Assembly: GCA_949358305.1 (NCBI GenBank)
Contig: OX442317.1
Coordinates: 14,326,491 to 14,390,490 of the forward strand
Source: Strigamia acuminata
Lineage: Eukaryota; Arthropoda; Chilopoda; Geophilomorpha; Linotaeniidae
Reading direction: 5' to 3'
DNA length: 64,000 bases
Part shown: positions 16,932 to 57,176 of the stretch, piece by piece
Position numbering within the stretch: position 1 is the first letter of the stretch
Layout of the letters: every line of letters begins with the position of its first letter
Translations under genes and position numbers: made by a program
The notes under the pieces: generated by a model
What the model saw: the letters and a program-made list of their open reading frames with translations, nothing else
What the model was told of the DNA's origin: nothing
The model's database searches: none

Positions 16932-16958
16932 GTTTTCTCTCCTCTCACAAATTCACGG

Positions 16959-17795: not shown

Positions 17796-17809
17796 GAAAA
17801 GCAGACGAT

Positions 17810-17828
17810 ATCCTGGTCACGGGTACCA
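17810..17828 (-). other. Primer binding site of element A
   Basis: In sense orientation TGGTACCCGTGACCAGGAT begins 15 nt after the 5' LTR. It resembles the site of element B, which matches the 3' end expected for tRNA-His, but it carries changes near its start. The same-family element D has TGGTGCACGTGACCAGGAT at this position. Confidence 0.6.
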
Positions 17829-17843
17829 AAAGAACGTATTCGA

Positions 17844-19412: not shown

Positions 19413-22400
19413 GATGTTGCTAAAACTTACATTGAAGCCTTCTACTAAGGTTTAAACACTATTTCTGAACATTCAGAGACATTGGTCTTGTGGTGTTTGT
19501 GCTAAGTCAACTGTGATGTCAAATGAGATCAAAAGTTTATTCTTTCAAATTATTGCTTGGATGTTGCTAAAACTAACATTAAAGCTTTCTACTAAGGTTT
19601 AAACACTATTTCAGAACATTCAGAGACATTGGTCTTGTGATGTTTGTGCTAAGTCAACTGTGATGAGATCAAAAGTCTATTCTCCCAAATCATTGCTTGG
19701 ATGTTGCTAAAACTTACATTAAAGCTTTCTACTAAGGTTTAAACACTATTTCAAAACATTCAGAGACATTGGTCTTGTGATGTTTGTGCTAAGTCAACTG
19801 TGATGAGATCAAAAGTCTATTCTCCCAAATCATTGCTTGGATGTTGCTAAAACTTACATTGAAGCCTTCTACTAAGGTTTAAACACTATTTCAGAACATT
19901 CAGAGACATTGGTTTGTGGTGTTTGTGCTAAGTCAACTGTGATGTCAAATGAGATCAAAAATTTATTCTTTCAAATTATTGCTTGGATGTTGCTAACACT
20001 TACATTGAAGCCTTCTACTAAGGTTTAAACACTATTTCAGAACATTTAGAGACATTGGTCTTGTGATGTTTGTGCTAAGTCAACTGTGATGTCAAATGAG
20101 ATCAAAAGTTTATTCTTTCAAATCATTGCTTGGATGTTGCTAAAACTTACATTAAAGCCTTCTACTAAGGTTTAAACACTATTTCAGAACATTCAGAGAC
20201 ATTGGTCTTGTGATGTTTGTGCTAAGTCAACTGTGATGAGATCAAAAGTCTATTCTCCAAAATCATTGCTTAAATGTTGCTAAAACTTACATTGAAGCCT
20301 TCTACTAAGGTTTAAACACTATTTCAGAACATTCAGACACATTGGTCTTGTGGTGTTTGTGCTAAGTCAACTGTGACGTCAAATGAGATCAAAAGTTTAT
20401 TCTTTCAAATTATTGCTTGGATGTTGCTAAAACTTACATTGAAGCTTTCTACTAAGGTTTAAACACTATTTCAGAACATTCAGAAACATTGGTCTTGTGA
20501 TGTTTGTGCTAAGTCAACTGTGATGTCAAATGGGATCAAAAGTTTATTCTTCCAAATCATTGCTTGGATGTTGCTAAAACTTACATTGAAGCCTTCTACT
20601 AAGGTTTAAACACTATTTCAGAACATTCAGAGACATTGGTCTTGTGGTGTTTGTGCTAAGTCAACTGTGATGAGATCAAAAGTCTATTCTCCCAAATCAT
20701 TGCTTGGATGTTGCTAAAACTTACATTGAAGCCGTCTACTAAGGTTTAAACACTATTTCAGAACATTTAGAGACATTGGTCTTGTGGTGTTTGTGCTAAG
20801 TCAACTGTGATGAGATCAAAAGTCTATTCTCCCAAATCATTGCTTGGATGTTGCTAAAACTTACATTAAAGCTTTTTACTAAGGTTTAAACACTATTTCA
20901 AAACATTCAGAGACATTGGTCTTGTGATGTTTGTGCTAAGTCAACTGTGTTGAGATCAAAAGTCTATTCTCCTAAATCATTGCTTGGATGTTGCTAAAAC
21001 TTACATTGAAGCCTTCTACTAAGGTTTAAACACTATTTCAGAACATTCAGAGACATTGGTTTGTGGTGTTTGTGCTAAGTCAACTGTGATGTCAAATGAG
21101 ATCAAAAGTTTATTCTTTCAAATTATTGCTTGGATGTTGCTAACACTTACATTGAAGCCTTCTACTAAGGTTTAAACACTATTTCTAAACATTCAGAGAC
21201 ATTGGTCTTGTGGTGTTTGTGCTAAGTCAACTGTGATGAGATCAAAAGTCTATTCTCCCAAATCATTGCTTGGATGTTGCTAAAACTTACATTGAAGCCT
21301 TCTACTAAGGTTTAAACACTATTTCAGAACATTCAGAGACATTGGTTTGTGGTGTTTGTGCTAAGTCAACTGTGATGTCAAATGAGATCAAAAGTTTATT
21401 CTTTCAAATTATTGCTTGGATGTTGCTAACACTTACATTGAAGCCTTCTACTAAGGTTTAAACACTATTTCTAAACATTCAGAGACATTGGTCTTGTGGT
21501 GTTTGTGCTAAGTCAACTGTGACGTCAAATGAGATCAAAAGTTTATTCTTTCAAATTATTGCTTGGATGTTGCTAAAACTTACATTGAAGCTTTCTACTA
21601 AGGTTTAAACACTATTTCAGAACATTCAGAGACATTGGTCTTGTGGTGTTTGTGCTAAGTCAACTGTGATGAGATCAAAAGTCTATTTTCCCAAATCATT
21701 TCTTGGATGTTGCTAAAACTTACATTAAAGCTTTCTACTAAGGTTTAAACACTATTTCAGAACATTCAGAGACATTGGTCTTGTGATGTTTGTGCTAAGT
21801 CAACTGTGATGAGATCAAAAGTCTATTCTCCTAAATCATTGCTTGGATGTTGCTAAAACTTAAATTAAAGCTTTCGACTAAGGTTTAAACACTATTTCAA
21901 AACATTCAGAGACATTGGTCTTGTGATGTTTGTGCTAAGTCAACTGTGATGAGATCAAAAGTCTATTCTCCCAAATCATTGCTTGGATGTTGCTAAAACT
22001 TACATTGAAGCCTTCTACTAAGGTTTAAACACTATTTCAGAACATTCAGAGACATTGGTTTGTGGTGTTTGTGCTAAGTCAACTGTGATGTCAAATAAGA
22101 TCAAAAATTTATTCTTTCAAATTATTGCTTGGATGTTGCTAACACTTACATTGAAGCCTTCTACTAAGGTTTAAACACTATTTCAGAACATTTAGAGACA
22201 TTGGTCTTGTGATGTTTGTGCTAAGTCAACTGTGATGTCAAATGAGATCAAAAGTTTATTCTTTCAAATCATTGCTTGGATGTTGCTAAAACTTACATTA
22301 AAGCCTTCTACTAAGGTTTAAACACTATTTCAGAACATTCAGAGACATTGGTCTTGTGATGTTTGTGCTAAGTCAACTGTGATGAGATCAAAAGTCTATT

Positions 22401-31400: not shown

Positions 31401-33506
31401 GTGCTAAGTCAACTGTGATGAGATCAAAAGTCTATTCTCCCAAATCATTGCTTGGATGTTGCTAAAACTTAAATTAAAGCTTTCTACTAAGGTTTAAACA
31501 CTATTTCAAAACATTCAGAGACATTGGTCTTGTGATGTTTGTGCTAAGTCAACTGTGATGAGATCAAAAGTCTATTCTCCCAAATCATTGCTTGGATGTT
31601 GCTAAAACTTACATTGAAGCCTTCTACTAAGGTTTAAACACTATTTCAGAACATTCAGAGACATTGGTTTGTGGTGTTTGTGCTAAGTCAACTGTGATGT
31701 CAAATAAGATCAAAAATTTATTCTTTCAAATTATTGCTTGGATGTTGCTAACACTTACATTGAAGCCTTCTACTAAGGTTTAAACACTATTTCAGAACAT
31801 TTAGAGACATTGGTCTTGTGATGTTTGTGCTAAGTCAACTGTGATGTCAAATGAGATCAAAAGTTTATTCTTTCAAATCATTGCTTGGATGTTGCTAAAA
31901 CTTACATTAAAGCCTTCTACTAAGGTTTAAACACTATTTCAGAACATTCAGAGACATTGGTCTTGTGATGTTTGTGCTAAGTCAACTGTGATGAGATCAA
32001 AAGTCTATTCTCCAAAATCATTGCTTAAATGTTGCTAAAACTTACATTGAAGCCTTCTACTAAGGTTTAAACACTATTTCAGAACATTCAGACACATTGG
32101 TCTTGTGGTGTTTGTGCTAAGTCAACTGTGACGTCAAATGAGATCAAAAGTTTATTCTTTCAAATTATTGCTTGGATGTTGCTAAAACTTACATTGAAGC
32201 TTTCTACTAAGGTTTAAACACTATTTCAGAACATTCAGAAACATTGGTCTTGTGATGTTTGTGCTAAGTCAACTGTGATGTCAAATGGGATCAAAAGTTT
32301 ATTCTTCCAAATCATTGCTTGGATGTTGCTAAAACTTACATTGAAGCCTTCTACTAAGGTTTAAACACTATTTCAGAACATTCAGAGACATTGGTCTTGT
32401 GGTGTTTGTGCTAAGTCAACTGTGATGAGATCAAAAGTCTATTTTCCCAAATCATTTCTTGGATGTTGCTAAAACTTACATTAAAGCTTTCTACTAAGGT
32501 TTAAACACTATTTCAGAACATTCAGAGACATTGGTCTTGTGATGTTTGTGCTAAGTCAACTGTGATGAGATCAACAGTCTATTCTCCCAAATCATTGCTT
32601 GGATGTTGCTAAAACTTACATTAAAGCTTTCTACTAAGGTTTAAACACTATTTCAAAACATTCAGAGACATTGGTCTTGTGATGTTTGTGCTAAGTCAAC
32701 TGTGATGAGATCAAAAGTCTATTCTCCCAAATCATTGCTTGGATGTTGCTAAAACTTACATTGAAACCTTCTACTAAGGTTTAAACACTATTTCAGAACA
32801 TTCAGAGACATTGGTTTGTGGTGTTTGTGCTAAGTCAACTGTGATGTCAAATGAGATCAAAAATTTATTCTTTCAAATTATTGCTTGGATGTTGCTAACA
32901 CTTACATTGAAGCCTTCTACTAAGGTTTAAACACTATTTCTAAACATTCAGAGACATTGGTCTTGTGGTGTTTGTGCTAAGTCAACTGTGACGTCAAATG
33001 AGATCAAAAGTTTATTCTTTCAAATTATTGCTTGGATGTTGCTAAAACTTACATTGAAGCTTTCTACTAAGGTTTAAACACTATTTCAGAACATTCAGAA
33101 ACATTGGTCTTGTGATGTTTGTGCTAAGTCAACTGTGATGTCAAATGGGATCAAAAGTTTATTCTTCCAAATCATTGCTTGGATGTTGCTAAAACTTACA
33201 TTGAAGCCTTCTACTAAGGTTTAAACACTATTTCAGAACATTCAGAGACATTGGTCTTGTGGTGTTTGTGCTAAGTCAACTGTGATGAGATCAAAAGTCT
33301 ATTTTCCCAAATCATTTCTTGGATGTTGCTAAAACTTACATTAAAGCTTTCTACTAAGGTTTAAACACTATTTCAGAACATTCAGAGACATTGGTCTTGT
33401 GATGTTTGTGCTAAGTCAACTGTGATGAGATCAACAGTCTATTCTCCCAAATCATTGCTTGGATGTTGCTAAAACTTACATTAAAGCTTTCTACTAAGGT
33501 TTAAAC
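19413..33506. repeat. Satellite array 2 with ~2.0-kb higher-order repeat
   Basis: About 98 monomers of the same 140/146/147-bp satellite, organised in a higher-order repeat. The marker TTGCTTAAATGTTGC recurs at 20271, 22417, 24131, 26138, 28145, 29872 and 32026, giving spacings of 2146, 1714, 2007, 2007, 1727 and 2154. The independent marker GATCAACAGTC recurs at 22963, 24677, 26684, 28691, 30418 and 32572, giving 1714, 2007, 2007, 1727 and 2154. The basic unit is therefore 2007 bp (14 monomers); the others differ by about one or two whole monomers (2007-280, 2007+147). No genes are seen in these 14 kb. Confidence 0.96.
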
Positions 33507-34463
33507 TGTTTCGAGCAACAGAAAGGAGGAAAGAGAGACCACAACTGCTCGTCAATTTGATAGTAGTTTGATTTTATGTGTTCGAAAATGTAAAGAAGAG
33601 TTACTAATTTCGGTCTTATAATTGTATTATTTATTTAGCAAATATCTAATCTTTTTCTGTTGTAATAGGAATTTTACATGTCTTTTTTTGTGTGCCAATT
33701 TTCAGTAAAGACAATGTTTGTTAGGTATTTTATCTCTTAGAATGACAAGGTCAAGGTTTAGGAATTTTTAGTCTTGTTTTCCAATGTTTTCATGTTATGT
33801 TTACCTATTTCTAAGTCTTGTCCTGTTCCCAGTTCAGTTGTGAAGGCGGAATGACGGGTTTGAAGCATCTGAGTTGCTTTAAAGGTGCATTAGAAAAGAA
33901 GGAATTGTTAATTTTGTAATGGATTGCAATTAATGCATTTTTACAGTGTATTTGACTTGCTTTAGATGCGTTATTTGCATATTTAGTTAAGTTTATTCCT
34001 ATTCTATTTGTTATAATTCTTTCCAATGATTTCTGTTAATTTTAGTTGATTTTATCTCTATTATGAGGCACAATGCAAGCTTTAACTTATGTTATTTAGA
34101 AATTTAGTCACTAGGTGCCTCATGAATTTGTTGTTGCTATAGAATTGTTGTTGTTATGAAGTTGTTACACTCTTGTTATGAAGAATTAGATGTAGTTAAG
34201 TTGAATTTGCCTCCATGTTAATGTTTTGAAATGATTAAAAGCATTATCTGGATTTTTCTACACAAAGGTTTATTTTATTCAACATCCAACATGTGTGAGT
34301 AGGGAGATTTAACCCCAAACTCCCTGGAGCAGCTCCCCACAAGATCCAGTGCAGAAACTCAAGTCAACTCATTTCTCCTCTCAGTATAGGCCTATGGGAA
34401 ATTTGCCAAGAATTCCCCATCGCGTTACAACTCGTCGCATCACGGCAGTGGCGAGTTGCAACA
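33507..34463 (+). repeat. Element B LTR 1 (957 bp)
   Basis: Starts TGTTTCGAGCAACAG and ends GAGTTGCAACA. It repeats at 38711 and 43915, with no differences noticed. As the outer 5' LTR it should hold the promoter. It shares the terminal TGTT and GCAACA with the LTRs of A, C and D but is otherwise dissimilar, so B is a separate family. Confidence 0.95.
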
Positions 34464-34467
34464 TTTT

Positions 34468-34485
34468 TGGTGCCGTGACCAGGAT
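34468..34485 (+). other. Primer binding site, element B copy 1 (tRNA-His type)
   Basis: TGGTGCCGTGACCAGGAT starts 4 nt after the LTR. Its complement ends in TCACGGC-A-CCA, the 3' acceptor strand expected for animal tRNA-His (whose 5' end is GCCGTGA). The tRNA assignment rests on recalled tRNA features and was not searched. Confidence 0.75.
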
Positions 34486-35629: not shown

Positions 35630-38617
35630 ATGGCAACTGCAGCTGGTTTGACCGCGGAAGCAGCGGAAGAGAAAGAAACACAATGGCAAGCCAAGGCCCA
35701 AGGAGCAGAGGATCTGCTCTCGACATCTGCAAACGTTCTCGACGGGGGTGAGCTTGAAGCTCTCCACGCAACAATAGATGCGCAGTTGAGTGACCTTATT
35801 GATGAGCTCGCTGTCTTTAAAGACAAGATAGAACGTTCAGATTACCTGCTTAGTTTGAGACGTCTCGAAGACATTAGGACTAAGGTCAATCTTCTTAAGC
35901 AAAGGACGAAATTTTCAAAACAGATGCAGGATAAGTTTGGGGCACATCCCGGCGGAAATACGCTAATGAATTCTGGATTTCTGAACAACTCCTCAATCAT
36001 ATCACGGAAGACTACAAAGCTTCCAAAGTTGACTCTGCAGAAATTCGACGGGAATCCGATGGAGTATAAGAGCTTCATGGATATGTTTTCAACCACAGTT
36101 GACGCCGATGCCGAGTTATCGAACGTCGAAAAACTTCAATATCTTAAATCAAGCTGTATCGGGGAAGCTGAAGTGGCGATTAAGTCGTACCCACTTACTA
36201 ACGATTCGTATTTAATGGCACTTAGCAGTTTAGAAGGACTTTTTGGGTCAGAAGTAGCCCAAAAGAACGCTCTGGCGAGGAAAATTCGTGAAGCCGAAGC
36301 AGTTAAAGATTTGTACCCAATCCAGCCAGTAAAATCTCTATTGACGTCCCTCACCGGTGCTTTCCGAACATTAGAACAGTTGAAGTTCCCAGTTACGACT
36401 ACTGGATTATTTCTAATCCCGGAATTATTGCGGAAGTTTCCACCGGAATTGGGAAGACGATTTCATAGGATTTACAAAGGAAACGTGGAAAACGTTAATT
36501 TATTTCTCGAATTTGTAGCAAGCGAAGTCAGAGTAGCAGAATTATCAGACGATAGCGTATTTACCAGTCAGAAAGTCACCAAGAAGAGTGAGAAACCAGC
36601 AACTAGAGAGCAAAAAGAAGAATTACGAGGGACCATGTCATCTTGCGCGGTTGCGCAAAATACGTCATTCGGGTCCAATACGAAAGAATCATTCAAACCA
36701 AAATCAGGTCCAGTCCGGAAATTGATCTGTGCCTTCTGTGAAGGAGATCATTTCAACAATAATTGCGACGCAAATCTGGAAGTTTCGGAGAAATACGACA
36801 TCGTTAAGCGAAAACGTCTATGCTTTAATTGCCTGAGACCAAGCCATACAGTGGGTAACTGCCCTGTAAAATTTTGTTGCCGATCATGCGGTGGTCGACA
36901 CCATTCTTCAATTTGTAACAGAGGTCATGCGGAAAAGCCACCTGATACCAAAGAAGAGAACGTCTCCGCCAACGTCTCGTTGTCGGTCTCAAGTGACGTC
37001 CAGCTAATGGTTTTCACAGCATTGTTCGTCCGAAAGAGTGGCGAAACAATCCCAGTTCGTGGATTACTCGATCCGGGTAGTCATCGTTCATATATTACGA
37101 AGCGGTTAGCAAAGAAATTACACCTAAACAAGATTGAGACGTATCACACCATGACCCAGTGTCTGCTGAACAAGGAACCAGTTCCTACAACTCATGACGT
37201 GTTTAGATTCGAGTTGCAGTCTCGTCACGACAAGCAGAAAGTGTCTGTATTTGCTCTTGATACCGACACACTTCCCAATATAAAGGGAGTGATAGATCAC
37301 CAAACGCTGCAACAAATCAAGTCGTTTAATCTTGAGATGGCAGAACCACATCCCTCCGTGTCAGATGAGGTAGATGTCTTGATCGGAAGCGGAGCATGGT
37401 GGAAAATAATTCAAGCGGGAACGAAGAGAATTAGTCCAGAATTAGGAATGATGAAAACAGTTTTTGGATGGATTTTAAACGGACAAATTAACTCAAAAGA
37501 GCCTTCCATCTACAAAGACGATATCTCACTGGGAGATGTATCGTGTATGGCGATCGATTCTGGAAAGAAGATGACTTTCAACACTTCAAAAAAGGACAAA
37601 GGCGGGTTTGGACAGGCGAATTCCACATCAATGCCCGACGAGAAAAGCGAAAAGGGTGGAGTACGAGCAAAAGGCGTCATCGCTTCTCGTTTTGCCGCGA
37701 GCCGCTCTAGCGAGCTGGAGGTACGGCATCCTGACGTCCCCATCGAATTGGAAATGGATGGAAAGCGGACGTTTAAAGGGATAAGGTCGGGCAAGATGGC
37801 GATTTCTCAGAGTCCTGACACACTGGAGTCTACGGAAAAGAAAGGAGAATTTCCAAAAAATTTCAAAAAAGATGAAGAAAAGGGTTTAAGTAAATGGAGG
37901 AAGATATTGAAATGGAGTCGCAAGAAACTCACCAATTCGCACAGAAGATCAAATGCAGTCACAAAGGCCACGGGAAATATACATTTAGTAATTGGCCCAA
38001 TGTTTTCTGGAAAAACTACTGCTTTACTTAATGTAATCCGAAATGAAGAAGAAAATTCTTGCCTGCTTGTTAAGCATTTGACAGACGTTAGATATAGTAA
38101 AGATGAAATGGTTAGCCACACCGGACAACGACGTCCAGCGGTTCGGGTCGCGTCGTTACAGGAAATCAAGAAAATTGCGGAGTCGGTCAAGACGATAGGT
38201 ATCGACGAAGAGCAATTTTTCGGAGACATCGATTCGTTTTCCGACAAAATGGCGAACGAAGGAAAGAATGTAATAATTGCCGCTTTAAATGGTGATTTTA
38301 AGAGACAGGAATTCAAGGCAGTATCTAATCTCATTCCACTAGCGGAAACTATTGTCAAACTTCATGCCAAATGCCACTTTTGTGGAAACCAAGCGTCGTT
38401 CACCAAACGAATATCGGGTGAAACGCAAGTTCAGGTTGTGGGAGGAGAAGAGAGATACAAGCCAACGTGTCGTACCTGTTTTCAGAAATCAATCAATTCT
38501 ATAGAAGTCAAGAGAAAGCTAATTAATGGAGCGGCACATTTAAGTTTAGCGATTTTGAATCGAAGATTACCTCCATGGGTGGCCAGTTTGATCCGCAAAA
38601 AATTGCGCTTACCTTAA
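35630..38617 (+). CDS. Gag-protease-thymidine kinase fusion, element B copy 1
   Basis: A 995-aa protein. Residues 1-120: helical N-terminus. About 128-275: BEL/Pao gag (DUF1759-like, KLPKLTLQKFDGNP). Three zinc knuckles (C367-C379, C398-C411, C417-C429). DUF1758-like aspartic protease with D481-P-G-S and, at its end, the FGW motif near residue 617. About 625-780: Lys/Ser-rich linker unlike known domains. 783-955: type II (TK1-like) thymidine kinase, which phosphorylates thymidine to dTMP. Its key parts are present: P-loop G789-PMFSGKT, Walker-B/catalytic I858-DEEQFF with E860, a PLAETIVKL segment, the lasso with GGEERY, and structural zinc cysteines C915, C918, C947 and C950. One family position is changed (AALNG for the usual AALDG). 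No RT, RNase H or integrase follows; the stop lies 93 bp before the LTR. The start is the first ATG after a pyrimidine-rich stretch. Gag identity and TK identity are secure; activity and VLP delivery are inferred. Confidence 0.95.
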   Translation: MATAAGLTAEAAEEKETQWQAKAQGAEDLLSTSANVLDGGELEALHATIDAQLSDLIDELAVFKDKIERSDYLLSLRRLEDIRTKVNLLKQRTKFSKQMQDKFGAHPGGNTLMNSGFLNNSSIISRKTTKLPKLTLQKFDGNPMEYKSFMDMFSTTVDADAELSNVEKLQYLKSSCIGEAEVAIKSYPLTNDSYLMALSSLEGLFGSEVAQKNALARKIREAEAVKDLYPIQPVKSLLTSLTGAFRTLEQLKFPVTTTGLFLIPELLRKFPPELGRRFHRIYKGNVENVNLFLEFVASEVRVAELSDDSVFTSQKVTKKSEKPATREQKEELRGTMSSCAVAQNTSFGSNTKESFKPKSGPVRKLICAFCEGDHFNNNCDANLEVSEKYDIVKRKRLCFNCLRPSHTVGNCPVKFCCRSCGGRHHSSICNRGHAEKPPDTKEENVSANVSLSVSSDVQLMVFTALFVRKSGETIPVRGLLDPGSHRSYITKRLAKKLHLNKIETYHTMTQCLLNKEPVPTTHDVFRFELQSRHDKQKVSVFALDTDTLPNIKGVIDHQTLQQIKSFNLEMAEPHPSVSDEVDVLIGSGAWWKIIQAGTKRISPELGMMKTVFGWILNGQINSKEPSIYKDDISLGDVSCMAIDSGKKMTFNTSKKDKGGFGQANSTSMPDEKSEKGGVRAKGVIASRFAASRSSELEVRHPDVPIELEMDGKRTFKGIRSGKMAISQSPDTLESTEKKGEFPKNFKKDEEKGLSKWRKILKWSRKKLTNSHRRSNAVTKATGNIHLVIGPMFSGKTTALLNVIRNEEENSCLLVKHLTDVRYSKDEMVSHTGQRRPAVRVASLQEIKKIAESVKTIGIDEEQFFGDIDSFSDKMANEGKNVIIAALNGDFKRQEFKAVSNLIPLAETIVKLHAKCHFCGNQASFTKRISGETQVQVVGGEERYKPTCRTCFQKSINSIEVKRKLINGAAHLSLAILNRRLPPWVASLIRKKLRLP

Positions 38618-38710
38618 GGAGTCATTAGGGAGCTGATCCTAGGTGGATGAGAAGTTTTCAGATTGCTAAGAGGTTCTTCTTCACCTTCTTTTCTTTTCGG
38701 CGGCAATCTC
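38618..38710 (+). other. 3' untranslated pyrimidine tract, element B copy 1
   Basis: From the stop codon to the LTR. Positions 38673-38710 are mainly C and T and end GGCGGCAATCTC just before TGTTTCG, parallel to the GGCAATTCG ends in A, C and D. No purine tract is seen next to the LTR, and there is no remnant of pol. Confidence 0.7.
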
Positions 38711-39667
38711 TGTTTCGAGCAACAGAAAGGAGGAAAGAGAGACCACAACTGCTCGTCAATTTGATAGTAGTTTGATTTTATGTGTTCGAAAATGTAAAGA
38801 AGAGTTACTAATTTCGGTCTTATAATTGTATTATTTATTTAGCAAATATCTAATCTTTTTCTGTTGTAATAGGAATTTTACATGTCTTTTTTTGTGTGCC
38901 AATTTTCAGTAAAGACAATGTTTGTTAGGTATTTTATCTCTTAGAATGACAAGGTCAAGGTTTAGGAATTTTTAGTCTTGTTTTCCAATGTTTTCATGTT
39001 ATGTTTACCTATTTCTAAGTCTTGTCCTGTTCCCAGTTCAGTTGTGAAGGCGGAATGACGGGTTTGAAGCATCTGAGTTGCTTTAAAGGTGCATTAGAAA
39101 AGAAGGAATTGTTAATTTTGTAATGGATTGCAATTAATGCATTTTTACAGTGTATTTGACTTGCTTTAGATGCGTTATTTGCATATTTAGTTAAGTTTAT
39201 TCCTATTCTATTTGTTATAATTCTTTCCAATGATTTCTGTTAATTTTAGTTGATTTTATCTCTATTATGAGGCACAATGCAAGCTTTAACTTATGTTATT
39301 TAGAAATTTAGTCACTAGGTGCCTCATGAATTTGTTGTTGCTATAGAATTGTTGTTGTTATGAAGTTGTTACACTCTTGTTATGAAGAATTAGATGTAGT
39401 TAAGTTGAATTTGCCTCCATGTTAATGTTTTGAAATGATTAAAAGCATTATCTGGATTTTTCTACACAAAGGTTTATTTTATTCAACATCCAACATGTGT
39501 GAGTAGGGAGATTTAACCCCAAACTCCCTGGAGCAGCTCCCCACAAGATCCAGTGCAGAAACTCAAGTCAACTCATTTCTCCTCTCAGTATAGGCCTATG
39601 GGAAATTTGCCAAGAATTCCCCATCGCGTTACAACTCGTCGCATCACGGCAGTGGCGAGTTGCAACA
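38711..39667 (+). repeat. Element B LTR 2 (shared, central)
   Basis: The middle LTR, serving as the 3' LTR of copy 1 and the 5' LTR of copy 2. No target duplication or satellite separates the copies, as expected for LTR-LTR recombination or a tandem duplication and not for two separate insertions. Confidence 0.95.
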
Positions 39668-39671
39668 TTTT

Positions 39672-40833: not shown

Positions 40834-43821
40834 ATGGCAACTGCAGCTGGTTTGACCGCGGAAGCAGCGGAAGAGAAAGAAACACAATGGCAAGCCAAGG
40901 CCCAAGGAGCAGAGGATCTGCTCTCGACATCTGCAAACGTTCTCGACGGGGGTGAGCTTGAAGCTCTCCACGCAACAATAGATGCGCAGTTGAGTGACCT
41001 TATTGATGAGCTCGCTGTCTTTAAAGACAAGATAGAACGTTCAGATTACCTGCTTAGTTTGAGACGTCTCGAAGACATTAGGACTAAGGTCAATCTTCTT
41101 AAGCAAAGGACGAAATTTTCAAAACAGATGCAGGATAAGTTTGGGGCACATCCCGGCGGAAATACGCTAATGAATTCTGGATTTCTGAACAACTCCTCAA
41201 TCATATCACGGAAGACTACAAAGCTTCCAAAGTTGACTCTGCAGAAATTCGACGGGAATCCGATGGAGTATAAGAGCTTCATGGATATGTTTTCAACCAC
41301 AGTTGACGCCGATGCCGAGTTATCGAACGTCGAAAAACTTCAATATCTTAAATCAAGCTGTATCGGGGAAGCTGAAGTGGCGATTAAGTCGTACCCACTT
41401 ACTAACGATTCGTATTTAATGGCACTTAGCAGTTTAGAAGGACTTTTTGGGTCAGAAGTAGCCCAAAAGAACGCTCTGGCGAGGAAAATTCGTGAAGCCG
41501 AAGCAGTTAAAGATTTGTACCCAATCCAGCCAGTAAAATCTCTATTGACGTCCCTCACCGGTGCTTTCCGAACATTAGAACAGTTGAAGTTCCCAGTTAC
41601 GACTACTGGATTATTTCTAATCCCGGAATTATTGCGGAAGTTTCCACCGGAATTGGGAAGACGATTTCATAGGATTTACAAAGGAAACGTGGAAAACGTT
41701 AATTTATTTCTCGAATTTGTAGCAAGCGAAGTCAGAGTAGCAGAATTATCAGACGATAGCGTATTTACCAGTCAGAAAGTCACCAAGAAGAGTGAGAAAC
41801 CAGCAACTAGAGAGCAAAAAGAAGAATTACGAGGGACCATGTCATCTTGCGCGGTTGCGCAAAATACGTCATTCGGGTCCAATACGAAAGAATCATTCAA
41901 ACCAAAATCAGGTCCAGTCCGGAAATTGATCTGTGCCTTCTGTGAAGGAGATCATTTCAACAATAATTGCGACGCAAATCTGGAAGTTTCGGAGAAATAC
42001 GACATCGTTAAGCGAAAACGTCTATGCTTTAATTGCCTGAGACCAAGCCATACAGTGGGTAACTGCCCTGTAAAATTTTGTTGCCGATCATGCGGTGGTC
42101 GACACCATTCTTCAATTTGTAACAGAGGTCATGCGGAAAAGCCACCTGATACCAAAGAAGAGAACGTCTCCGCCAACGTCTCGTTGTCGGTCTCAAGTGA
42201 CGTCCAGCTAATGGTTTTCACAGCATTGTTCGTCCGAAAGAGTGGCGAAACAATCCCAGTTCGTGGATTACTCGATCCGGGTAGTCATCGTTCATATATT
42301 ACGAAGCGGTTAGCAAAGAAATTACACCTAAACAAGATTGAGACGTATCACACCATGACCCAGTGTCTGCTGAACAAGGAACCAGTTCCTACAACTCATG
42401 ACGTGTTTAGATTCGAGTTGCAGTCTCGTCACGACAAGCAGAAAGTGTCTGTATTTGCTCTTGATACCGACACACTTCCCAATATAAAGGGAGTGATAGA
42501 TCACCAAACGCTGCAACAAATCAAGTCGTTTAATCTTGAGATGGCAGAACCACATCCCTCCGTGTCAGATGAGGTAGATGTCTTGATCGGAAGCGGAGCA
42601 TGGTGGAAAATAATTCAAGCGGGAACGAAGAGAATTAGTCCAGAATTAGGAATGATGAAAACAGTTTTTGGATGGATTTTAAACGGACAAATTAACTCAA
42701 AAGAGCCTTCCATCTACAAAGACGATATCTCACTGGGAGATGTATCGTGTATGGCGATCGATTCTGGAAAGAAGATGACTTTCAACACTTCAAAAAAGGA
42801 CAAAGGCGGGTTTGGACAGGCGAATTCCACATCAATGCCCGACGAGAAAAGCGAAAAGGGTGGAGTACGAGCAAAAGGCGTCATCGCTTCTCGTTTTGCC
42901 GCGAGCCGCTCTAGCGAGCTGGAGGTACGGCATCCTGACGTCCCCATCGAATTGGAAATGGATGGAAAGCGGACGTTTAAAGGGATAAGGTCGGGCAAGA
43001 TGGCGATTTCTCAGAGTCCTGACACACTGGAGTCTACGGAAAAGAAAGGAGAATTTCCAAAAAATTTCAAAAAAGATGAAGAAAAGGGTTTAAGTAAATG
43101 GAGGAAGATATTGAAATGGAGTCGCAAGAAACTCACCAATTCGCACAGAAGATCAAATGCAGTCACAAAGGCCACGGGAAATATACATTTAGTAATTGGC
43201 CCAATGTTTTCTGGAAAAACTACTGCTTTACTTAATGTAATCCGAAATGAAGAAGAAAATTCTTGCCTGCTTGTTAAGCATTTGACAGACGTTAGATATA
43301 GTAAAGATGAAATGGTTAGCCACACCGGACAACGACGTCCAGCGGTTCGGGTCGCGTCGTTACAGGAAATCAAGAAAATTGCGGAGTCGGTCAAGACGAT
43401 AGGTATCGACGAAGAGCAATTTTTCGGAGACATCGATTCGTTTTCCGACAAAATGGCGAACGAAGGAAAGAATGTAATAATTGCCGCTTTAAATGGTGAT
43501 TTTAAGAGACAGGAATTCAAGGCAGTATCTAATCTCATTCCACTAGCGGAAACTATTGTCAAACTTCATGCCAAATGCCACTTTTGTGGAAACCAAGCGT
43601 CGTTCACCAAACGAATATCGGGTGAAACGCAAGTTCAGGTTGTGGGAGGAGAAGAGAGATACAAGCCAACGTGTCGTACCTGTTTTCAGAAATCAATCAA
43701 TTCTATAGAAGTCAAGAGAAAGCTAATTAATGGAGCGGCACATTTAAGTTTAGCGATTTTGAATCGAAGATTACCTCCATGGGTGGCCAGTTTGATCCGC
43801 AAAAAATTGCGCTTACCTTAA
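40834..43821 (+). CDS. Gag-protease-thymidine kinase fusion, element B copy 2
   Basis: Identical 995-aa translation to the copy at 35630: gag, three zinc knuckles, DPGS aspartic protease, Lys/Ser-rich linker, type II thymidine kinase with P-loop at 789-796, catalytic E860 and the four zinc cysteines. Because both copies are intact and identical, the sequence alone cannot tell a recent duplication from an assembly repeat. If real, the locus has two complete TK fusion genes, the second driven by the central LTR. Confidence 0.92.
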   Translation: MATAAGLTAEAAEEKETQWQAKAQGAEDLLSTSANVLDGGELEALHATIDAQLSDLIDELAVFKDKIERSDYLLSLRRLEDIRTKVNLLKQRTKFSKQMQDKFGAHPGGNTLMNSGFLNNSSIISRKTTKLPKLTLQKFDGNPMEYKSFMDMFSTTVDADAELSNVEKLQYLKSSCIGEAEVAIKSYPLTNDSYLMALSSLEGLFGSEVAQKNALARKIREAEAVKDLYPIQPVKSLLTSLTGAFRTLEQLKFPVTTTGLFLIPELLRKFPPELGRRFHRIYKGNVENVNLFLEFVASEVRVAELSDDSVFTSQKVTKKSEKPATREQKEELRGTMSSCAVAQNTSFGSNTKESFKPKSGPVRKLICAFCEGDHFNNNCDANLEVSEKYDIVKRKRLCFNCLRPSHTVGNCPVKFCCRSCGGRHHSSICNRGHAEKPPDTKEENVSANVSLSVSSDVQLMVFTALFVRKSGETIPVRGLLDPGSHRSYITKRLAKKLHLNKIETYHTMTQCLLNKEPVPTTHDVFRFELQSRHDKQKVSVFALDTDTLPNIKGVIDHQTLQQIKSFNLEMAEPHPSVSDEVDVLIGSGAWWKIIQAGTKRISPELGMMKTVFGWILNGQINSKEPSIYKDDISLGDVSCMAIDSGKKMTFNTSKKDKGGFGQANSTSMPDEKSEKGGVRAKGVIASRFAASRSSELEVRHPDVPIELEMDGKRTFKGIRSGKMAISQSPDTLESTEKKGEFPKNFKKDEEKGLSKWRKILKWSRKKLTNSHRRSNAVTKATGNIHLVIGPMFSGKTTALLNVIRNEEENSCLLVKHLTDVRYSKDEMVSHTGQRRPAVRVASLQEIKKIAESVKTIGIDEEQFFGDIDSFSDKMANEGKNVIIAALNGDFKRQEFKAVSNLIPLAETIVKLHAKCHFCGNQASFTKRISGETQVQVVGGEERYKPTCRTCFQKSINSIEVKRKLINGAAHLSLAILNRRLPPWVASLIRKKLRLP

Positions 43822-43914: not shown

Positions 43915-44871
43915 TGTTTCGAGCAACAGAAAGGAGGAAAGAGAGACCACAACTGCTCGTCAATTTGATAGTAGTTTGATTTTATGTGTTCGAAAATGTA
44001 AAGAAGAGTTACTAATTTCGGTCTTATAATTGTATTATTTATTTAGCAAATATCTAATCTTTTTCTGTTGTAATAGGAATTTTACATGTCTTTTTTTGTG
44101 TGCCAATTTTCAGTAAAGACAATGTTTGTTAGGTATTTTATCTCTTAGAATGACAAGGTCAAGGTTTAGGAATTTTTAGTCTTGTTTTCCAATGTTTTCA
44201 TGTTATGTTTACCTATTTCTAAGTCTTGTCCTGTTCCCAGTTCAGTTGTGAAGGCGGAATGACGGGTTTGAAGCATCTGAGTTGCTTTAAAGGTGCATTA
44301 GAAAAGAAGGAATTGTTAATTTTGTAATGGATTGCAATTAATGCATTTTTACAGTGTATTTGACTTGCTTTAGATGCGTTATTTGCATATTTAGTTAAGT
44401 TTATTCCTATTCTATTTGTTATAATTCTTTCCAATGATTTCTGTTAATTTTAGTTGATTTTATCTCTATTATGAGGCACAATGCAAGCTTTAACTTATGT
44501 TATTTAGAAATTTAGTCACTAGGTGCCTCATGAATTTGTTGTTGCTATAGAATTGTTGTTGTTATGAAGTTGTTACACTCTTGTTATGAAGAATTAGATG
44601 TAGTTAAGTTGAATTTGCCTCCATGTTAATGTTTTGAAATGATTAAAAGCATTATCTGGATTTTTCTACACAAAGGTTTATTTTATTCAACATCCAACAT
44701 GTGTGAGTAGGGAGATTTAACCCCAAACTCCCTGGAGCAGCTCCCCACAAGATCCAGTGCAGAAACTCAAGTCAACTCATTTCTCCTCTCAGTATAGGCC
44801 TATGGGAAATTTGCCAAGAATTCCCCATCGCGTTACAACTCGTCGCATCACGGCAGTGGCGAGTTGCAACA
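43915..44871 (+). repeat. Element B LTR 3 (957 bp)
   Basis: Outer 3' LTR, ending GAGTTGCAACA at 44871 and followed by AAAC, which matches the last four satellite bases before LTR 1. Confidence 0.95.
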
Positions 44872-45550
44872 AAACACTATTTCAAAACATTCAGAGACAT
44901 TGGTCTTGTGATGTTTGTGCTAAGTCAACTGTGATGAGATCAAAAGTCTATTCTCCCAAATCATTGCTTGGATGTTGCTAAAACTTACATTGAAACCTTC
45001 TACTAAGGTTTAAACACTATTTCAGAACATTCAGAGACATTGGTTTGTGGTGTTTGTGCTAAGTCAACTGTGATGTCAAATGAGATCAAAAATTTATTCT
45101 TTCAAATTATTGCTTGGATGTTGCTAACACTTACATTGAAGCCTTCTACTAAGGTTTAAACACTATTTCTAAACATTCAGAGACATTGGTCTTGTGGTGT
45201 TTGTGCTAAGTCAACTGTGATGAGATCAAAAGTCTATTCTCCCAAATCATTGCTTGGATGTTGCTAAAACTTACATTGAAGCCTTCTACTAAGGTTTAAA
45301 CACTATTTCAGAACATTCAGAAACATTGGTCTTGTGATGTTTGTGCTAAGTCAACTGTGATGTCAAATGGGATCAAAAGTTTATTCTTTCAAATCATTGC
45401 TTGGATGTTGCTAAAACTTACATTAAAGCTTTCTACTAAGGTTTAAACACTATTTCAGAACATTTAGAGACATTGGTCTTGTGATGTTTGTGCTAAGTCA
45501 ACTGTGATGAGATCAAAAGTCTATTCTCCAAAATCATTGCTTGGATGTTG
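44872..45550. repeat. Satellite array 3a
   Basis: About five satellite monomers continuing the higher-order order interrupted at 33506: the monomer with ACTATTTCAAAACATT, then CATTGAAACCTTC, then the GGTTTGTGG form with AACACTTACATT, as at 28770-29040. After about 45200 the order departs from that unit. The stretch ends where the fold-back element begins. Confidence 0.95.
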
Positions 45551-46745: not shown

Positions 46746-48021
46746 TGTTGCAAACAACGTGGAATAATTTAGAAACTACTTTTATTGCCAATTTGTGTCT
46801 GAATAAATGTTTCCAAAGTGTGTTTTATTTTGCATAACATTTCAGTTTTTATTTACAGGATTTTTGCATTATTAAAATGTTTTTAGTGCTTTCAGATACT
46901 GATGTTTGATGAAATGTGATATTCCATTGTTTATTGCATTTATTTCTAGTGTTTATTGCGTGATTTTGTGTTACTTTATTCATTTTCTATCAATTTGTGT
47001 GATTTCGGGTGAAATTTGGTGCATTTGTCGTTGAACAGTTCACTAGTGTTATTGACGTGACGTCATATTTCAAGTTCTAGTTCGGTTTTTGTTCAAACTT
47101 CTAACCTTCCGTTTGGACGGAATTTTGATGGTTAGAATTGTTTTTGACATTGTTTTAGACTAATTTGGGGGTGATCTGTTGATTCGTGCACTCTAATTTC
47201 GTCCCGGAACAGCCGTTTTTCTGCTACGAGCGATCGTGACGGACCCCGCATGTGCGTTGCCGTCCAAGATCGTTTCGTTCGGTTTGCGGTTGATTTCAAG
47301 TGTTCTTTCATTAAAACGTGTCTTGTTTGCGGGAAATTACATTTCCTGAACTTATTTACTTATTTGGTTTTGTGTGTGACTTTGAATTCAAACTTGATGA
47401 TTATGTCATTTTGCTTGTCTCTGATTGGTTAGGCCCAATTGTCTGCTTAGCGATCACTGTTTTCGCTGTTTTCTCATTGTTTTGATTAACGAATTTTGTT
47501 GTTACGATAGACTTTATTATTCCTTAGTTTTTTGTGCTCATTTTGAGCTATTACACATTATTTTTAATACATTTCTCGTAATTTGTTGTCTTTGCTTGAA
47601 ATTGCATTTCCTCCGTTTCCGTGGCAACGGAGTATTTCTTTATTGTAAATTGCCGACAATTGGTTTGGCGTGTGCCATCCTATTATAATGTGTAATTATT
47701 CAGTTGCCATTTTTATATTTGATTAAAATAGTCGTGTTAATGTTAACTCTTACCTTTTCTGCTTTTGACCCATTTCCAATGTGTCCTGAGTAGAAAACCA
47801 TTTTTCCCAGACTGGCCAATGGATCAGCAAACACTTTGGATACCATGCAAAAGTGTTTCCAACAGTTAAACCTTCATGTAACAGGAGATTTTGAGGCGAA
47901 TCAAGTGCATTTCCACACGGTACACGTACGAATTTCACTATACGATCGTTTGAGTTTGTTGGCGGGAGTTTCGAATCGCCACATCTCAGTTCTTCTCTGT
48001 TCCTGTTGACTGACCGCAACA
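46746..48021 (+). repeat. 5' LTR of element C (1276 bp)
   Basis: Same as 54243-55518. It contains AATAAA at 46802, a perfect CRE-like palindrome TGACGTCA at 47058-47065 and an RFX/X-box-like site at 47615. It shares several blocks with the A/D LTR, for example TTTACAGGA followed shortly by TTATTAAAATG. Small hydrophobic frames (47250-47432, 47425-47688) are not convincing genes. Confidence 0.95.
47615..47628 (+). promoter_or_regulatory. RFX/X-box-like palindrome in 5' LTR of element C
   Basis: GTTTCCGTGGCAAC differs at one position from the core X-box form GTTNCC-AT-GGNAAC. It sits within CTCCGTT/AACGGAG, at the same place as the A/D site although surrounding sequence differs. Confidence 0.45.
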
Positions 48022-48036
48022 TCGAATAAGAATTTT

Positions 48037-48056
48037 TGGTGCACGTGACCATGGAT
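48037..48056 (+). other. Primer binding site of element C
   Basis: TGGTGCACGTGACCATGGAT begins 15 nt after the LTR. It resembles the tRNA-His type site of B but with an extra A after TGGTGC, as in D, and an extra T further on. Confidence 0.6.
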
Positions 48057-48070
48057 TTCGTCTGCTTCTT

Positions 48071-48918
48071 GTGAGTTTTTTCCGGTTCATCTTTGATACG
48101 TTCAACCGTGCATCTGGTGCGATTGACGGAAAATACGTCCGTGAGTCGTCGTCTGCTAGAATGGTCGTCGTTCAACGTGACAACAGCCACAACGGGGATT
48201 TATTTGGCGTCGATCACGAACATTTCTGTGCAAGCAACGAGATTCTTCGGTCGACATCTTGGATTACACAACGCGCTGTGCTGGAAAGCCGATTTGCCCC
48301 TGAAATAATTGCTTATTCTTGTGTTTTGCATTCAGTGCTTGTATTTTTAAGATTTTGGTTGCATGAGGGTATTGTATTGGGTATTTCAAAGCTGTTTTTG
48401 CTGTTTCCTAAGCTAGTTTTGAGGGAAAATTCACTGAAAGTGTATTTTATTGTGAATTTTTCAAGTGCTTTCTTGAATTTTGTGCATGCATCTCCATATA
48501 ACTGGCTTAACCAGGGGAGGTTTAGATTTTTTGGAGTTAGAAACTGTTCAGTCTCTCATTGCAAGAGCTGTCAGTTATTATCGTGAATCTGATAGTGATT
48601 TTCTGGCTAGATTCGTTCCGTACGAACAGCAGAAATAATTCAAACTTGTGTAGGACTTTCTGAGTCACGTTTTTTAATCCGTGATCAAGGTCGCTCGTTT
48701 GTTTTGGCATCCTTGATTGCTAAAACACTCGATATTCTTGTGCATTTTCAAGGTTTTTTGTCGTTTGGGCAAGAAAACTTTGAAAAATTCTGTTCTTTTA
48801 AAGTAAATGATTGTGAATTTTATTCTTTTCAAGTGTAAAGTTTATAATTTATTCCTTTTAAGTTTAAAGCGAAGTGTTTTGTTGTTCAAAATATTATCTT
48901 CTGTTTCATAATTTACAG
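48071..48918 (+). other. Leader of element C; candidate 848-nt intron
   Basis: Starts with donor-like GTGAGT at 48071, just after the primer site, and ends with TTTACAG at 48918, 13 bases before the gag ATG. Positions match the A/D leader. A frame through 48071-48586 resembles the A/D leader frame, but it starts at the donor GTG and not at an ATG. Confidence 0.5.
48639..48749 (+). other. Conserved leader block (element C copy)
   Basis: Closely matches 57787-57896 of D, including TTCAAACTTGTGTAGGACTT, GAGTCACGTTTTT, TCAAGGTCGCTCGT and ACACTCGATATTCTTGTGC, while the sequence on both sides has diverged more. Confidence 0.55.
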
Positions 48919-48931
48919 CCGTGAATTTGAG

Positions 48932-51900
48932 ATGGAGAGAGATAGAGATACAGAAACTTCCGAACGCGATTTACTCACTGTGGAGCAAATTGAAATACTA
49001 GAGACCAGGTGGGAAGCACAACTTTCATCTCTCAACGACTTGCTGTCTTTGTCGGAGAAGACGAGCGATCCAGGAGAGTTAGAAGCGCTTCTGCTTACTG
49101 CAAATCTGAAAGAGACACGCGTTGTAAATGGCCTGAACGAGCTTCAAGTCTACTGTGAGCACGCGTTTTACCTTGAGAGTGTCGAGAAACTGGAATCATC
49201 ACAAACGAGAGTGGAACTTCTCCGAAGAAGGTGGGAGGTTTCAAAGCGGTCTCTTCCAACCCTTGGAGGAAGACTCAACATGTCTACAGTTTCCGGTGCA
49301 AATACATCCCTGAATACTTCGACTTCTTTCCGCAAGAATTCCAAGTTGCCCAAACTTGAATCTGTAAAGTTTGACGGGGAGATAATCAAATACAAGACGT
49401 TTAAGAGCAACTTTGAAACTTCTGTTCATAATGACCCAGATCTGAGCAGTGTTGAAAAGTTGCAATACCTTCAAACTATGTGTACAGGTGAGGCTGCGGC
49501 TTTGATTTCCACCTTTCCTTTGATCGAGGAATCCTATGACTTGGCACGGGAAGAACTTGATCGTAACTATGGCGATGAGGATGCGCAACAGACGGCTCTC
49601 ATCCAATCCATTCGAGACTTGAAGACTGTTTCAAGCATATACCCGACAAAGGTGTTGAAAGCAAATTTGACGAAAATTTCTTCAACAATACGACTTCTAG
49701 AGCAACTGAAGATTCCTGTACGGACATCTGGTGCATTTCTGATGCCGGACATTCTTAGCAAGTTTCCTGCTCCAATGACTTTGCGTTTTTACCAAGTCCA
49801 TGGACTGTCTTGCAAGAACATTTTGACTTTGCTTGACTTTTTTCAAAAGGAAGTAGCTATGGCAGAACGCACTGAAGCTGTTTCTCCATCTGAAAAAGCA
49901 AAGAAGGAAAAGTCTGAAGTTGAAAAGGCTAAAGTTAAAGGATCCATGACGACTTGCACCGCGACGCAAGACTCAAAATCGTCTTCAAGCTCCAAAGTGA
50001 AAACAGAGTCGAGACAAGAGAACAGGTCTGCAAATTCCAAGGCACTCAAGTGCATTTTTTGTCAAGAAGACCATTTGAGCGGTTCTTGCAAAAAGGAGTT
50101 CGAAATCAATGCAAAGATTGAATTGATAAAGAAAAACAGACTTTGCTTTAATTGTTTTCGAACAGGTCATCGCGTTGGTGACTGCAAAGTGAAGTTTTCC
50201 TGCAAGCATTGTGGCGGAAGACATCATTCAACCATTTGTAAGAAGTCTGAGGTGAACAATTCTCCAAGTCCGACAGAGAAGCCAAAGGAGTCGCAAGTGA
50301 CCACACACGTCTCGTGCGCGATATCCACTTCTCTTCAACTTATGATTTTTGTTGCTGACCTCAAAACCAAATCTGGAGGTTCACACCACATCCGAGGCAT
50401 GATTGACCCGGGTAGCCATCGGTCATTCATTACAACTGAACTGGTGAACCGACTAAAACTGAAGAAGTGCGGCAGTATTTCTGCGACCACACAACGGTTC
50501 AACGATTCTATGCCTGCTGCCACTGATTACGACGTATACAACGTTACTCTTCAAAGCAAGAATGACGCACAAAACTTCAAATTATCAATGCTTTCAGTGG
50601 AAAATTTGCCGAAAGTGCAGGGCATTTTGAATGCATCGGTAATAGAAAAGGTGAAGAAGCTGAATCTTGAACTTGCCGAAGATCTGCCAGCCAAGACATC
50701 TCAAATAGACATTCTTTTGGGAGTTGATGCCTGGTGGAAAGTCATTAAAGATGGCAAAAAGAAAATCAACGACGATCTTGGACTCATAAATACGTTATTT
50801 GGATGGGTGCTTATCGGAGCAGCCGGAAATACGGATTTATTCGAAGATGAAGCTGATTTGACTTCATGTTGTAATACTTGCAACATAGAAATCCATGAAC
50901 AATTGGACAAACTTTGGAATTTAGAGGCAATTGGGATTAATGCTGGTGAAAAAGAATCCGATTTCACAAGAGATCGATTTGAAGCCACGACAAAACGTCT
51001 CGATGACGGAAGATACGAGGTGATGCTGCCTTTTAATGGACAAGAAACTGACTTGGACTCAAACTGGGAGCTCGCACTTAACCAATTAGCCAACACATTG
51101 AAGAGAATCGACTCAAATGACGATTATAAGAAGCGATATGACGACTCAATGTGGCAGTACATTGAAGAAAACCACGCTGAGGAAGTTCCAACTGAAGAAC
51201 GGTTCCTAAAGAAAGGGACATATAACATTCCACATCATCCAGTGATCAAAGAGGACCGGGAAACAACGAAATTCAGAGTCGTATTCAATGCGTCGTCTGC
51301 GAAAAAAGGAAAACGATCATTAAATGACTGCCTTTTTCCTGGACCATCTTTGAATCCAGATTTGATATTGGTGATGGTCAGATTCAGATTGTATTGCATT
51401 CCAATCATTGCTGACATTAAACAAGCATTCCTCCAAGTAATGATAAACCCCACACATAGGAACTTTCTGCGTTTTTTGTGGGTTTCGAAGCAATATTTCA
51501 AGAACCCCTATTCGTGGAGAAATTTGTGGAATAATATTATGATTTTGAGGATGATAGTCGTACCATTTGGAGTTATTTCCTCTCCTTTTCTCCTGTGCGC
51601 AACAATTCGGAAACAAGCTGATCAATACAAAGAGACACATCCGAAAGAAGTTGATGCATTGGACGCCGGGATATACATGGATGATTTAACTTCTGGAGGT
51701 GATCACACGACAGACACAACAAAGCATTGTGAAGAATTAAAAATGATTTTGGATGACGGGAAACTCCCACTTGTTAAATGGGCGACAGCCAATGAAAAGG
51801 TTTTCAATGACATCAAAGAAAAGGGATTTCACATGAGAAGTGACGAATTCTGTGAACAGGGAGTGATAAAAATGCTTGGAATCTTATGGGACACGCAAGA

Positions 51901-54184: not shown

Positions 54185-54242
54185 TGTGTGTTTTGCAGAC
54201 TTCTCTCATCTCTCTTCTCTCTCTTTCTCGCTGGCAATTCGT
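54185..54242 (+). other. 3' untranslated pyrimidine tract, element C
   Basis: 58 bp of mainly C and T ending TCGCTGGCAATTCGT before TGTTGC. It is the counterpart of 63309-63361 in D, and no purine tract is present. Confidence 0.7.
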
Positions 54243-55518
54243 TGTTGCAAACAACGTGGAATAATTTAGAAACTACTTTTATTGCCAATTTGTGTCTGAA
54301 TAAATGTTTCCAAAGTGTGTTTTATTTTGCATAACATTTCAGTTTTTATTTACAGGATTTTTGCATTATTAAAATGTTTTTAGTGCTTTCAGATACTGAT
54401 GTTTGATGAAATGTGATATTCCATTGTTTATTGCATTTATTTCTAGTGTTTATTGCGTGATTTTGTGTTACTTTATTCATTTTCTATCAATTTGTGTGAT
54501 TTCGGGTGAAATTTGGTGCATTTGTCGTTGAACAGTTCACTAGTGTTATTGACGTGACGTCATATTTCAAGTTCTAGTTCGGTTTTTGTTCAAACTTCTA
54601 ACCTTCCGTTTGGACGGAATTTTGATGGTTAGAATTGTTTTTGACATTGTTTTAGACTAATTTGGGGGTGATCTGTTGATTCGTGCACTCTAATTTCGTC
54701 CCGGAACAGCCGTTTTTCTGCTACGAGCGATCGTGACGGACCCCGCATGTGCGTTGCCGTCCAAGATCGTTTCGTTCGGTTTGCGGTTGATTTCAAGTGT
54801 TCTTTCATTAAAACGTGTCTTGTTTGCGGGAAATTACATTTCCTGAACTTATTTACTTATTTGGTTTTGTGTGTGACTTTGAATTCAAACTTGATGATTA
54901 TGTCATTTTGCTTGTCTCTGATTGGTTAGGCCCAATTGTCTGCTTAGCGATCACTGTTTTCGCTGTTTTCTCATTGTTTTGATTAACGAATTTTGTTGTT
55001 ACGATAGACTTTATTATTCCTTAGTTTTTTGTGCTCATTTTGAGCTATTACACATTATTTTTAATACATTTCTCGTAATTTGTTGTCTTTGCTTGAAATT
55101 GCATTTCCTCCGTTTCCGTGGCAACGGAGTATTTCTTTATTGTAAATTGCCGACAATTGGTTTGGCGTGTGCCATCCTATTATAATGTGTAATTATTCAG
55201 TTGCCATTTTTATATTTGATTAAAATAGTCGTGTTAATGTTAACTCTTACCTTTTCTGCTTTTGACCCATTTCCAATGTGTCCTGAGTAGAAAACCATTT
55301 TTCCCAGACTGGCCAATGGATCAGCAAACACTTTGGATACCATGCAAAAGTGTTTCCAACAGTTAAACCTTCATGTAACAGGAGATTTTGAGGCGAATCA
55401 AGTGCATTTCCACACGGTACACGTACGAATTTCACTATACGATCGTTTGAGTTTGTTGGCGGGAGTTTCGAATCGCCACATCTCAGTTCTTCTCTGTTCC
55501 TGTTGACTGACCGCAACA
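54243..55518 (+). repeat. 3' LTR of element C (1276 bp)
   Basis: Offset by exactly 7497 bp from the 5' LTR, with no differences noticed. It is followed by AAGG, the target duplication. Confidence 0.95.
55112..55125 (+). promoter_or_regulatory. RFX/X-box-like palindrome in 3' LTR of element C
   Basis: Second copy of GTTTCCGTGGCAAC. See 47615. Confidence 0.4.
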
Positions 55519-57161: not shown

Positions 57162-57176
57162 TCGAATACGTTCTTT

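Follow-up and report, generated by a model that had tools for sequence, protein, structure and literature searches.

A BEL/Pao retrotransposon family of the centipede Strigamia acuminata with a thymidine kinase behind its gag and protease

Retroviral gag-oncogene fusions and the maize element Bs1 carry a coding sequence of cellular type behind gag and have lost pol. Transduced genes are known in long terminal repeat (LTR) elements, Bs1 being an example (PMC7264820), and non-autonomous LTR elements bearing gag are known in plants as TR-GAG (PMC8704663). The present work concerns a stretch of 64,000 nucleotides of Strigamia acuminata, called the window throughout (OX442317.1, positions 14,326,491 to 14,390,490; a part of contig C5 in the 237.5-Mb genome of 157 contigs, G000), in which one gene, named here gag-TK, joins a BEL/Pao gag and protease to a complete type II thymidine kinase (TK) that appears to be kept by selection, within a predicted non-autonomous element. 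No description of an LTR retrotransposon with a thymidine kinase was found in the open-access literature searched, as judged partly by titles and the beginnings of abstracts, in accordance with an earlier note on this DNA, made from its letters alone, which knew of none.

The frame at 35630-38617 is intact over 995 codons and was found exactly as the earlier note had read it, with BEL/Pao gag, three zinc knuckles, a DPGS protease and the TK, a linker lying between the last two. Open reading frame (ORF) analysis, Pfam and reading of the sequence delimit the following parts, for which the ratio of nonsynonymous to synonymous substitution (dN/dS) is given where it was estimated:

36044..36475, + strand: gag region, DUF1759, residues 139-282 (Pfam E-value 4.8e-15)
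36728..36916, + strand: three CCHC-like zinc knuckles, read from the sequence, one spaced CX2CX4HX4C and two CX2CX3HX4C
37067..37486, + strand: aspartic protease region, DUF1758, residues 480-619, with the LLDPGSHRSYIT motif (Pfam E-value 9.5e-5)
37505..37966, + strand: basic, fast-evolving linker, residues 626-779 (dN/dS 0.38-0.72 versus 0.05-0.17 in gag and TK)
37973..38482, + strand: type II thymidine kinase domain, residues 782-951 (PF00265, structure match; dN/dS 0.108, 95% interval 0.058-0.176)
38483..38614, + strand: C-terminal tail, residues 952-995, predicted to be mostly helical, found in the gag-TK rows of the alignment and absent from the aligned rows of the gag-less families C, D and E

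The family comparisons which the earlier note had proposed were run and bear out its assignments: the TK matches PF00265 over the whole profile (positions 1-176 of 176; E-value 6.9e-54, 182.8 bits against a curated cut-off of 20.6), and both DUF1759 and DUF1758 are recovered, the latter barely above its threshold, scoring 22.5 bits where 22 are required. The protease motif, in the context LLDPGSH, is kept in the second lineage of the element (lineage B, below) and in the autonomous BEL elements, and in the lineage B copy L039 Pfam gives TK and DUF1759 with no DUF1758 at an E-value of 1e-3, despite the DPGS motif. Among solved structures, the TK domain finds the thymidine kinase 1w4r (1.6e-42) and the cytosolic enzyme 1xbt (2e-42), and an AlphaFold2 model of residues 783-995 (mean pLDDT 91) superposes on human TK1 (1xbt_D) with a TM-score of 0.93 normalised by the target and 0.71 by the model, a root mean square deviation of 1.0 and 43% identity. 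Invariant in the six aligned element TKs are G7, P8, M9, G12, K13 and T14, D37, R39, E78, C133, C136, G156, Y161, C165 and C168, which we take to belong to the P-loop GPM[FY]xGKT, an Asp/Arg pair, the catalytic Glu of IDExQFF, the Gly and Tyr of the lasso and the two zinc-binding CxxC pairs. The TK of the frame is complete and probably active as a thymidine kinase.

The fusion is not confined to the window. All place counts that follow are lower bounds, since 150 of the 206 candidates of the TK search of this genome were scored; the gag search scored 67 of 1269, and the gag part is present at those 67 places. Lineage A, to which the window copies belong, occupies at least 44 places at 94-100% identity (32 with a 995-codon and 5 with a 1002-codon frame), and lineage B at least 52 places at 54-56%, of which 47 have an open frame of 1009 or 1013 codons without a stop. 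A single place stands at 74% in the TK search (L035), and at least three partial TK places stand at 81-84%; of the copies compared below, L035 and L037 are broken or cut short. Of the 96 A and B places, 84 have an open frame as long as gag-TK requires; in the others it is shorter or, once, carries a stop. The A and B proteins are colinear and 51.5% identical from end to end over 1004 residues (B copies score 58% in the gag search), and the alignment between them is ungapped in the TK and gapped in the linker. Since the two are colinear and the TK is ungapped, the fusion is older than their separation, and gag-TK is an old fusion common to two deep lineages. The lineage B copy L039 is bounded by TG...CA LTRs of 1358 bp with 2 differences and by a GACT target duplication.

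The substitution pattern suggests what has been kept over that time. From NG86 estimates with codon bootstrap intervals, made on few sequences, the comparison of lineage A with L035 gives dN/dS of 0.131 (0.091-0.179) for gag and protease, 0.375 (0.233-0.580) for the linker, 0.108 for the TK (interval as listed above) and 0.363 for the tail. Within lineage B, L039 versus L037 gives, in the same order, 0.072, 0.717, 0.173 (0.088-0.324) and 0.264, and L039 versus L032 gives 0.047, 0.657, 0.153 (0.056-0.325) and 0.71, the last with a wide interval. The linker is a built-in control, which evolves fast while the TK at the C-terminal side of it is held about as tightly as gag. The TK therefore appears to be under purifying selection within the fusion, as is predicted for a functional component and not for a passenger. 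For the pair C29-C30, dN/dS is 0.33, the interval being as broad as 0.10-1.66, and two further pairs have no silent change.

The locus in the window has the order LTR, gag-pro-TK, LTR, gag-pro-TK, LTR at 33507-44871, with a period of 5204 bp:

33503..33506, no strand: left copy of the target-site duplication AAAC, lying within the 140/147-bp satellite, from reading of the flank
33507..34463, + strand: first LTR, 957 bp, TG...CA, identical to those at 38711 and 43915; the satellite stops at 33506
34468..34485, + strand: putative primer-binding site beginning TGGTGCCGTGACCAGG, 4 bp past the LTR, its start resembling those of the two autonomous BEL elements of the window and of lineage B
35630..38617, + strand: gag-pro-TK ORF, copy 1, 995 aa (ORF and Pfam)
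38691..38710, + strand: 3' end of the internal region, TTCTTTTCGGCGGCAATCTC, adjoining the LTR, with related sequence likewise placed in lineage B and both autonomous BEL elements
38711..39667, + strand: middle LTR, common to both tandem copies, identical to the first
40834..43821, + strand: gag-pro-TK ORF, copy 2, identical to copy 1
43915..44871, + strand: last LTR, identical to the other two
44872..44875, no strand: right target-site duplication AAAC, from reading of the flank

The three LTRs are identical to each other, as are both internal regions, and AAAC stands once at each end, as a single 4-bp target duplication, so that the array is either a single insertion or one that grew by LTR-LTR recombination. 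Pairs in tandem, with a spacing of about 5 kb, occur also at C13:9876670/9881877, at C21:205778/210745 and at the loci L034 and L037. In the leader of both window copies a 39-bp unit is repeated in tandem about five times (35094-35303 and 40298-40507).

No pol domain was detected by Pfam in the 995-aa ORF or in the three forward frames of the leader, the antisense frames lying outside this search. The same library, applied as a control to the autonomous BEL polyprotein at 58074-63308, finds Peptidase_A17, Integrase_H2C2, DUF5641 and a sub-threshold RVT_1; RNase H is found by it in neither case. The similarity of gag-TK to the autonomous BEL polyproteins of the window, 37-39% identity over gag and protease, breaks off at residues 618-639, ahead of pol, and the stop codon lies only 93 bp ahead of the 3' LTR. 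The absence of a pol domain, the end of the similarity before pol and this short distance together indicate that the TK occupies the place of pol, and the element is, by its predicted coding content, a non-autonomous BEL/Pao derivative, for which a polymerase would be needed in trans. The earlier note's BEL/Pao gene fused to a TK stands in its class and in the fusion; that the element is without a detected pol, and that a second identical copy and three LTRs accompany it, had escaped that note.

Autonomous BEL elements lie in the same window:

46746..55518, + strand: autonomous BEL element with a 1750-aa polyprotein at 48932-54184 and 1276-bp LTRs, a possible polymerase donor with a gag only 37% identical to that of gag-TK
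10075..19413, - strand: autonomous BEL element with a 1744-aa polyprotein at 11697-16931 and LTRs of about 1570 bp, 99.9% identical
from 55592, + strand: second copy of the 1744-aa BEL element, polyprotein at 58074-63308

In the 1744-aa elements a 234-aa open frame with a TTG start, at 17326-18030 (-) and 56975-57679 (+), overlaps the 5' LTR at its end as well as the leader, in the orientation of their gag-pol frame.

We consider it probable that gag-TK forms a non-autonomous BEL/Pao family with the single gene gag-protease-TK, whose particles would use a borrowed polymerase and whose kinase would raise thymidine mono- and triphosphate (dTMP and dTTP) for the synthesis of its own cDNA; that the TK is kept suggests that it benefits the element to make a DNA building block of its own. 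The Gag-Pro-TK polyprotein would assemble the particles, the element's protease may free the TK, and the kinase could act free or inside the particle. One of the genome's autonomous BEL elements would lend reverse transcriptase and integrase, because its primer-binding region and the 3' end of its internal region (TCGCCGGCAAT-like) resemble those of lineages A and B. The TK would phosphorylate thymidine to dTMP, which host kinases would carry on to dTTP for the element's reverse transcription. Cytosolic TK1 of animals drops outside S phase, so an element-borne enzyme could permit reverse transcription in resting cells, above all where host TK1 is low.

Several observations weigh against this account or bear on it. 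The LTRs and most of the DNA of the autonomous window elements have no alignment to A or B, and their gag is as distant as stated above. By comparison with the 67 gag places scored, the lineage A leader immediately precedes a gag-TK gag in 36 of the 40 cases scored, and an autonomous twin with this leader was not seen among these 40 of 45 candidates, 4 of which were left unread (C5:12807363, C21:236434, C1:64226005 and C1:64301796, without a listed gag match within about 1.2 kb); the LTR search, with 40 of 101 candidates scored, returned places all 98-100% identical. The long open frames at C130 (1999 and 1118) contain X runs due to N stretches or could not be resolved, and were not accepted as gag-pol-TK fusions. 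As to selection, the close copies L041 and L036 each differ from A at two points in the TK, every one replacing an amino acid and none silent, which is too little for use and gives no support; dS is near 1, close to saturation for NG86; and the divergence of L035 and L037 may be partly neutral, which would raise dN/dS and not lower it.

The TK is also met outside gag-TK. Families C, D and E are dispersed repeats with TKs of about 180-220 aa and without the gag-TK frame, listed at no fewer than 5, 3 and 42 places, respectively, to which a profile search adds others, such as six 216-codon frames, one of them (L042) of family D. Loci L029-L031 represent family C, and L021-L023 with L042 family D; their TK ORF is intact and falls into one clade with the TKs of gag-TK elements. 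Family E has a 185-aa TK ORF, and its copy at C3:12197028-12208962 is identical over 11,935 bp to a copy on C9, which runs on into 200 N (L026, L044 and L046). Its left end is TAACCCTATGGCGC; its right end was not found in the parts read. Besides TK, no Pfam domain was found in family E at an E-value of 0.01, in six frames each of about 11.3 kb of the C3 copy upstream of the TK and of 4.2 kb of L024 downstream of it, and neither LTR nor terminal inverted repeat was found in the parts read, families C and D having been read less. The D and E TKs are 80% identical, with dN/dS of 0.124-0.129, and when L021, which contains N stretches, is compared with L024 at thresholds of 100 bp and 70% identity, only 510 bp of the TK ORF align, at 78%.

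The origin of this kinase was followed in a tree of 40 rows, comprising 10 element TKs, one host TK1 and 29 database proteins (32 chosen among the 120 listed, less P0022, P0026 and P0035, which lack the motif). The host TK1 at L045 (C9:8318715) has at least six exon-like pieces with intron-like gaps and groups with scallop TK1 on a branch that is not strong (93/69), and at 92/90 with two further rows. The ten element TKs form a separate clade (95/98), in which A+B are nested (99/98), as emerged when the tree with host TK1 that the earlier note had recommended was built; the nearest rows outside the clade are the metagenomic P0001 and P0014, with tandem TK-like domains (89/86). By the approximately unbiased (AU) test, with groups defined after inspection of the tree, joining host TK1 to the element TKs is disfavoured (p 0.028), as is joining it to A+B alone (p 0.018). 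The capture of a TK supposed by the earlier note is thus without support if the resident TK1 is meant, and a recent capture of that gene was rejected. An origin from viruses was rejected likewise: 144 viral-contig stretches matched a pattern and 10 encode a relative, distant at 37% identity at best. Against the protein database, the TK alone has 224 matches, the best identity among the 120 listed being 47%. No other protein of 547-1741 aa with this TK (residues 780-995) was found among 589 candidates at E-values up to 1e-3, and the gag has 7 matches, none with a precomputed TK domain, among the best 8000 word-sharing candidates scored.

It is conceivable, and we propose it tentatively, that the TK is a recurrent mobile cargo, one ancient clade, not from the resident TK1, carried by at least three gag-TK lineages (A, L035 and B) and by the gag-less families C, D and E, and that raised thymidine nucleotides would be a selectable trait of non-autonomous elements, which would pay for a helper's reverse transcriptase or outcompete others for it.

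Other explanations of the kept kinase have to be weighed against its catalytic use by the element. The TK could have a structural role, as a scaffold that forms tetramers or associates with nucleic acid and stabilises Gag assembly in the former place of pol; TK1-like enzymes are tetramers, and here the domain is fused to Gag and followed by a tail conserved in gag-TK rows only. However, the P-loop lysine, the aspartate, the catalytic glutamate and the zinc cysteines are kept across A, B and the aligned gag-less TKs, and families D and E conserve the TK equally with no Gag in frame, which makes this explanation unlikely. Somewhat less credible is that the kinase serves the host, repeats having spread TK genes that were domesticated or selected for dosage. 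Numerous TK copies throughout the genome, gag-less repeats included, would fit it, but the host owns an intron-bearing TK1, the copies are near-identical, those examined are LTR-flanked and two have target duplications, and gag-TK lies partly in satellite arrays, all as expected of selfish insertions. A chance-captured passenger without function, for which captured genes in LTR elements such as Bs1 offer a precedent (PMC7264820), is strongly disfavoured by the TK dN/dS of 0.11-0.17 (upper 95% bounds 0.18-0.33) beside 0.4-0.7 in the linker and by the ungapped TK of two deep lineages, and we regard it as very improbable. An assembly artefact deserves the least credence: the window copies are identical over their 5204-bp period, and this tandem copy taken alone could still be a duplication error, but pairs of this spacing recur at other loci, and the same junction in two lineages, with open frames of full length in 84 of 96 places on many contigs, excludes chance and junction mis-assembly and answers the earlier note's concern that gag and TK might not be contiguous.

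The 140/147-bp satellite fills about 25.5 kb of the window, and the BEL/Pao elements are inserted into it. As a preferred target of gag-TK it was rejected, being present in merely 4 of the 10 fetched gag-TK stretches, besides the window. Another insertion into the satellite, at 45551-46128, resembles a miniature inverted-repeat transposable element with subterminal repeats: it carries numerous short GCGCAAATTTG units, whose orientation at one end is opposite to that at the other.

A selected metabolic enzyme standing in place of pol alters the view of which components a non-autonomous element requires. Nucleotide supply limits retroviruses, as through host SAMHD1, and gag-TK suggests that it is a battleground for retrotransposons too. 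The occurrence of a single TK clade in a number of repeat families of this genome would amount to a natural series of experiments.

With autonomous BEL/Pao elements gag-TK shares the DUF1759 gag, zinc knuckles, DUF1758-type protease, TG...CA LTRs, 4-bp duplications and a similar primer-binding site and 3' end; unlike them, it has no detected pol domain and carries a thymidine kinase after the protease. With type II TKs of animals and poxviruses its kinase shares family, fold and catalytic and zinc residues, and it differs in standing behind Gag and protease, in being 44% identical to the host TK1 and in forming a separate clade. Bs1 and the gag-oncogene fusions differ from it in that gag-TK is old, multi-lineage and high-copy, and bears a complete metabolic enzyme apparently under purifying selection. 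TR-GAG has the same structure, two LTRs and one gag-containing ORF without pol, and needs polymerase in trans (PMC8704663), as gag-TK is predicted to; the case treated there is ATCOPIA63, whereas gag-TK is a BEL/Pao element with a protease and an added, selected enzyme.

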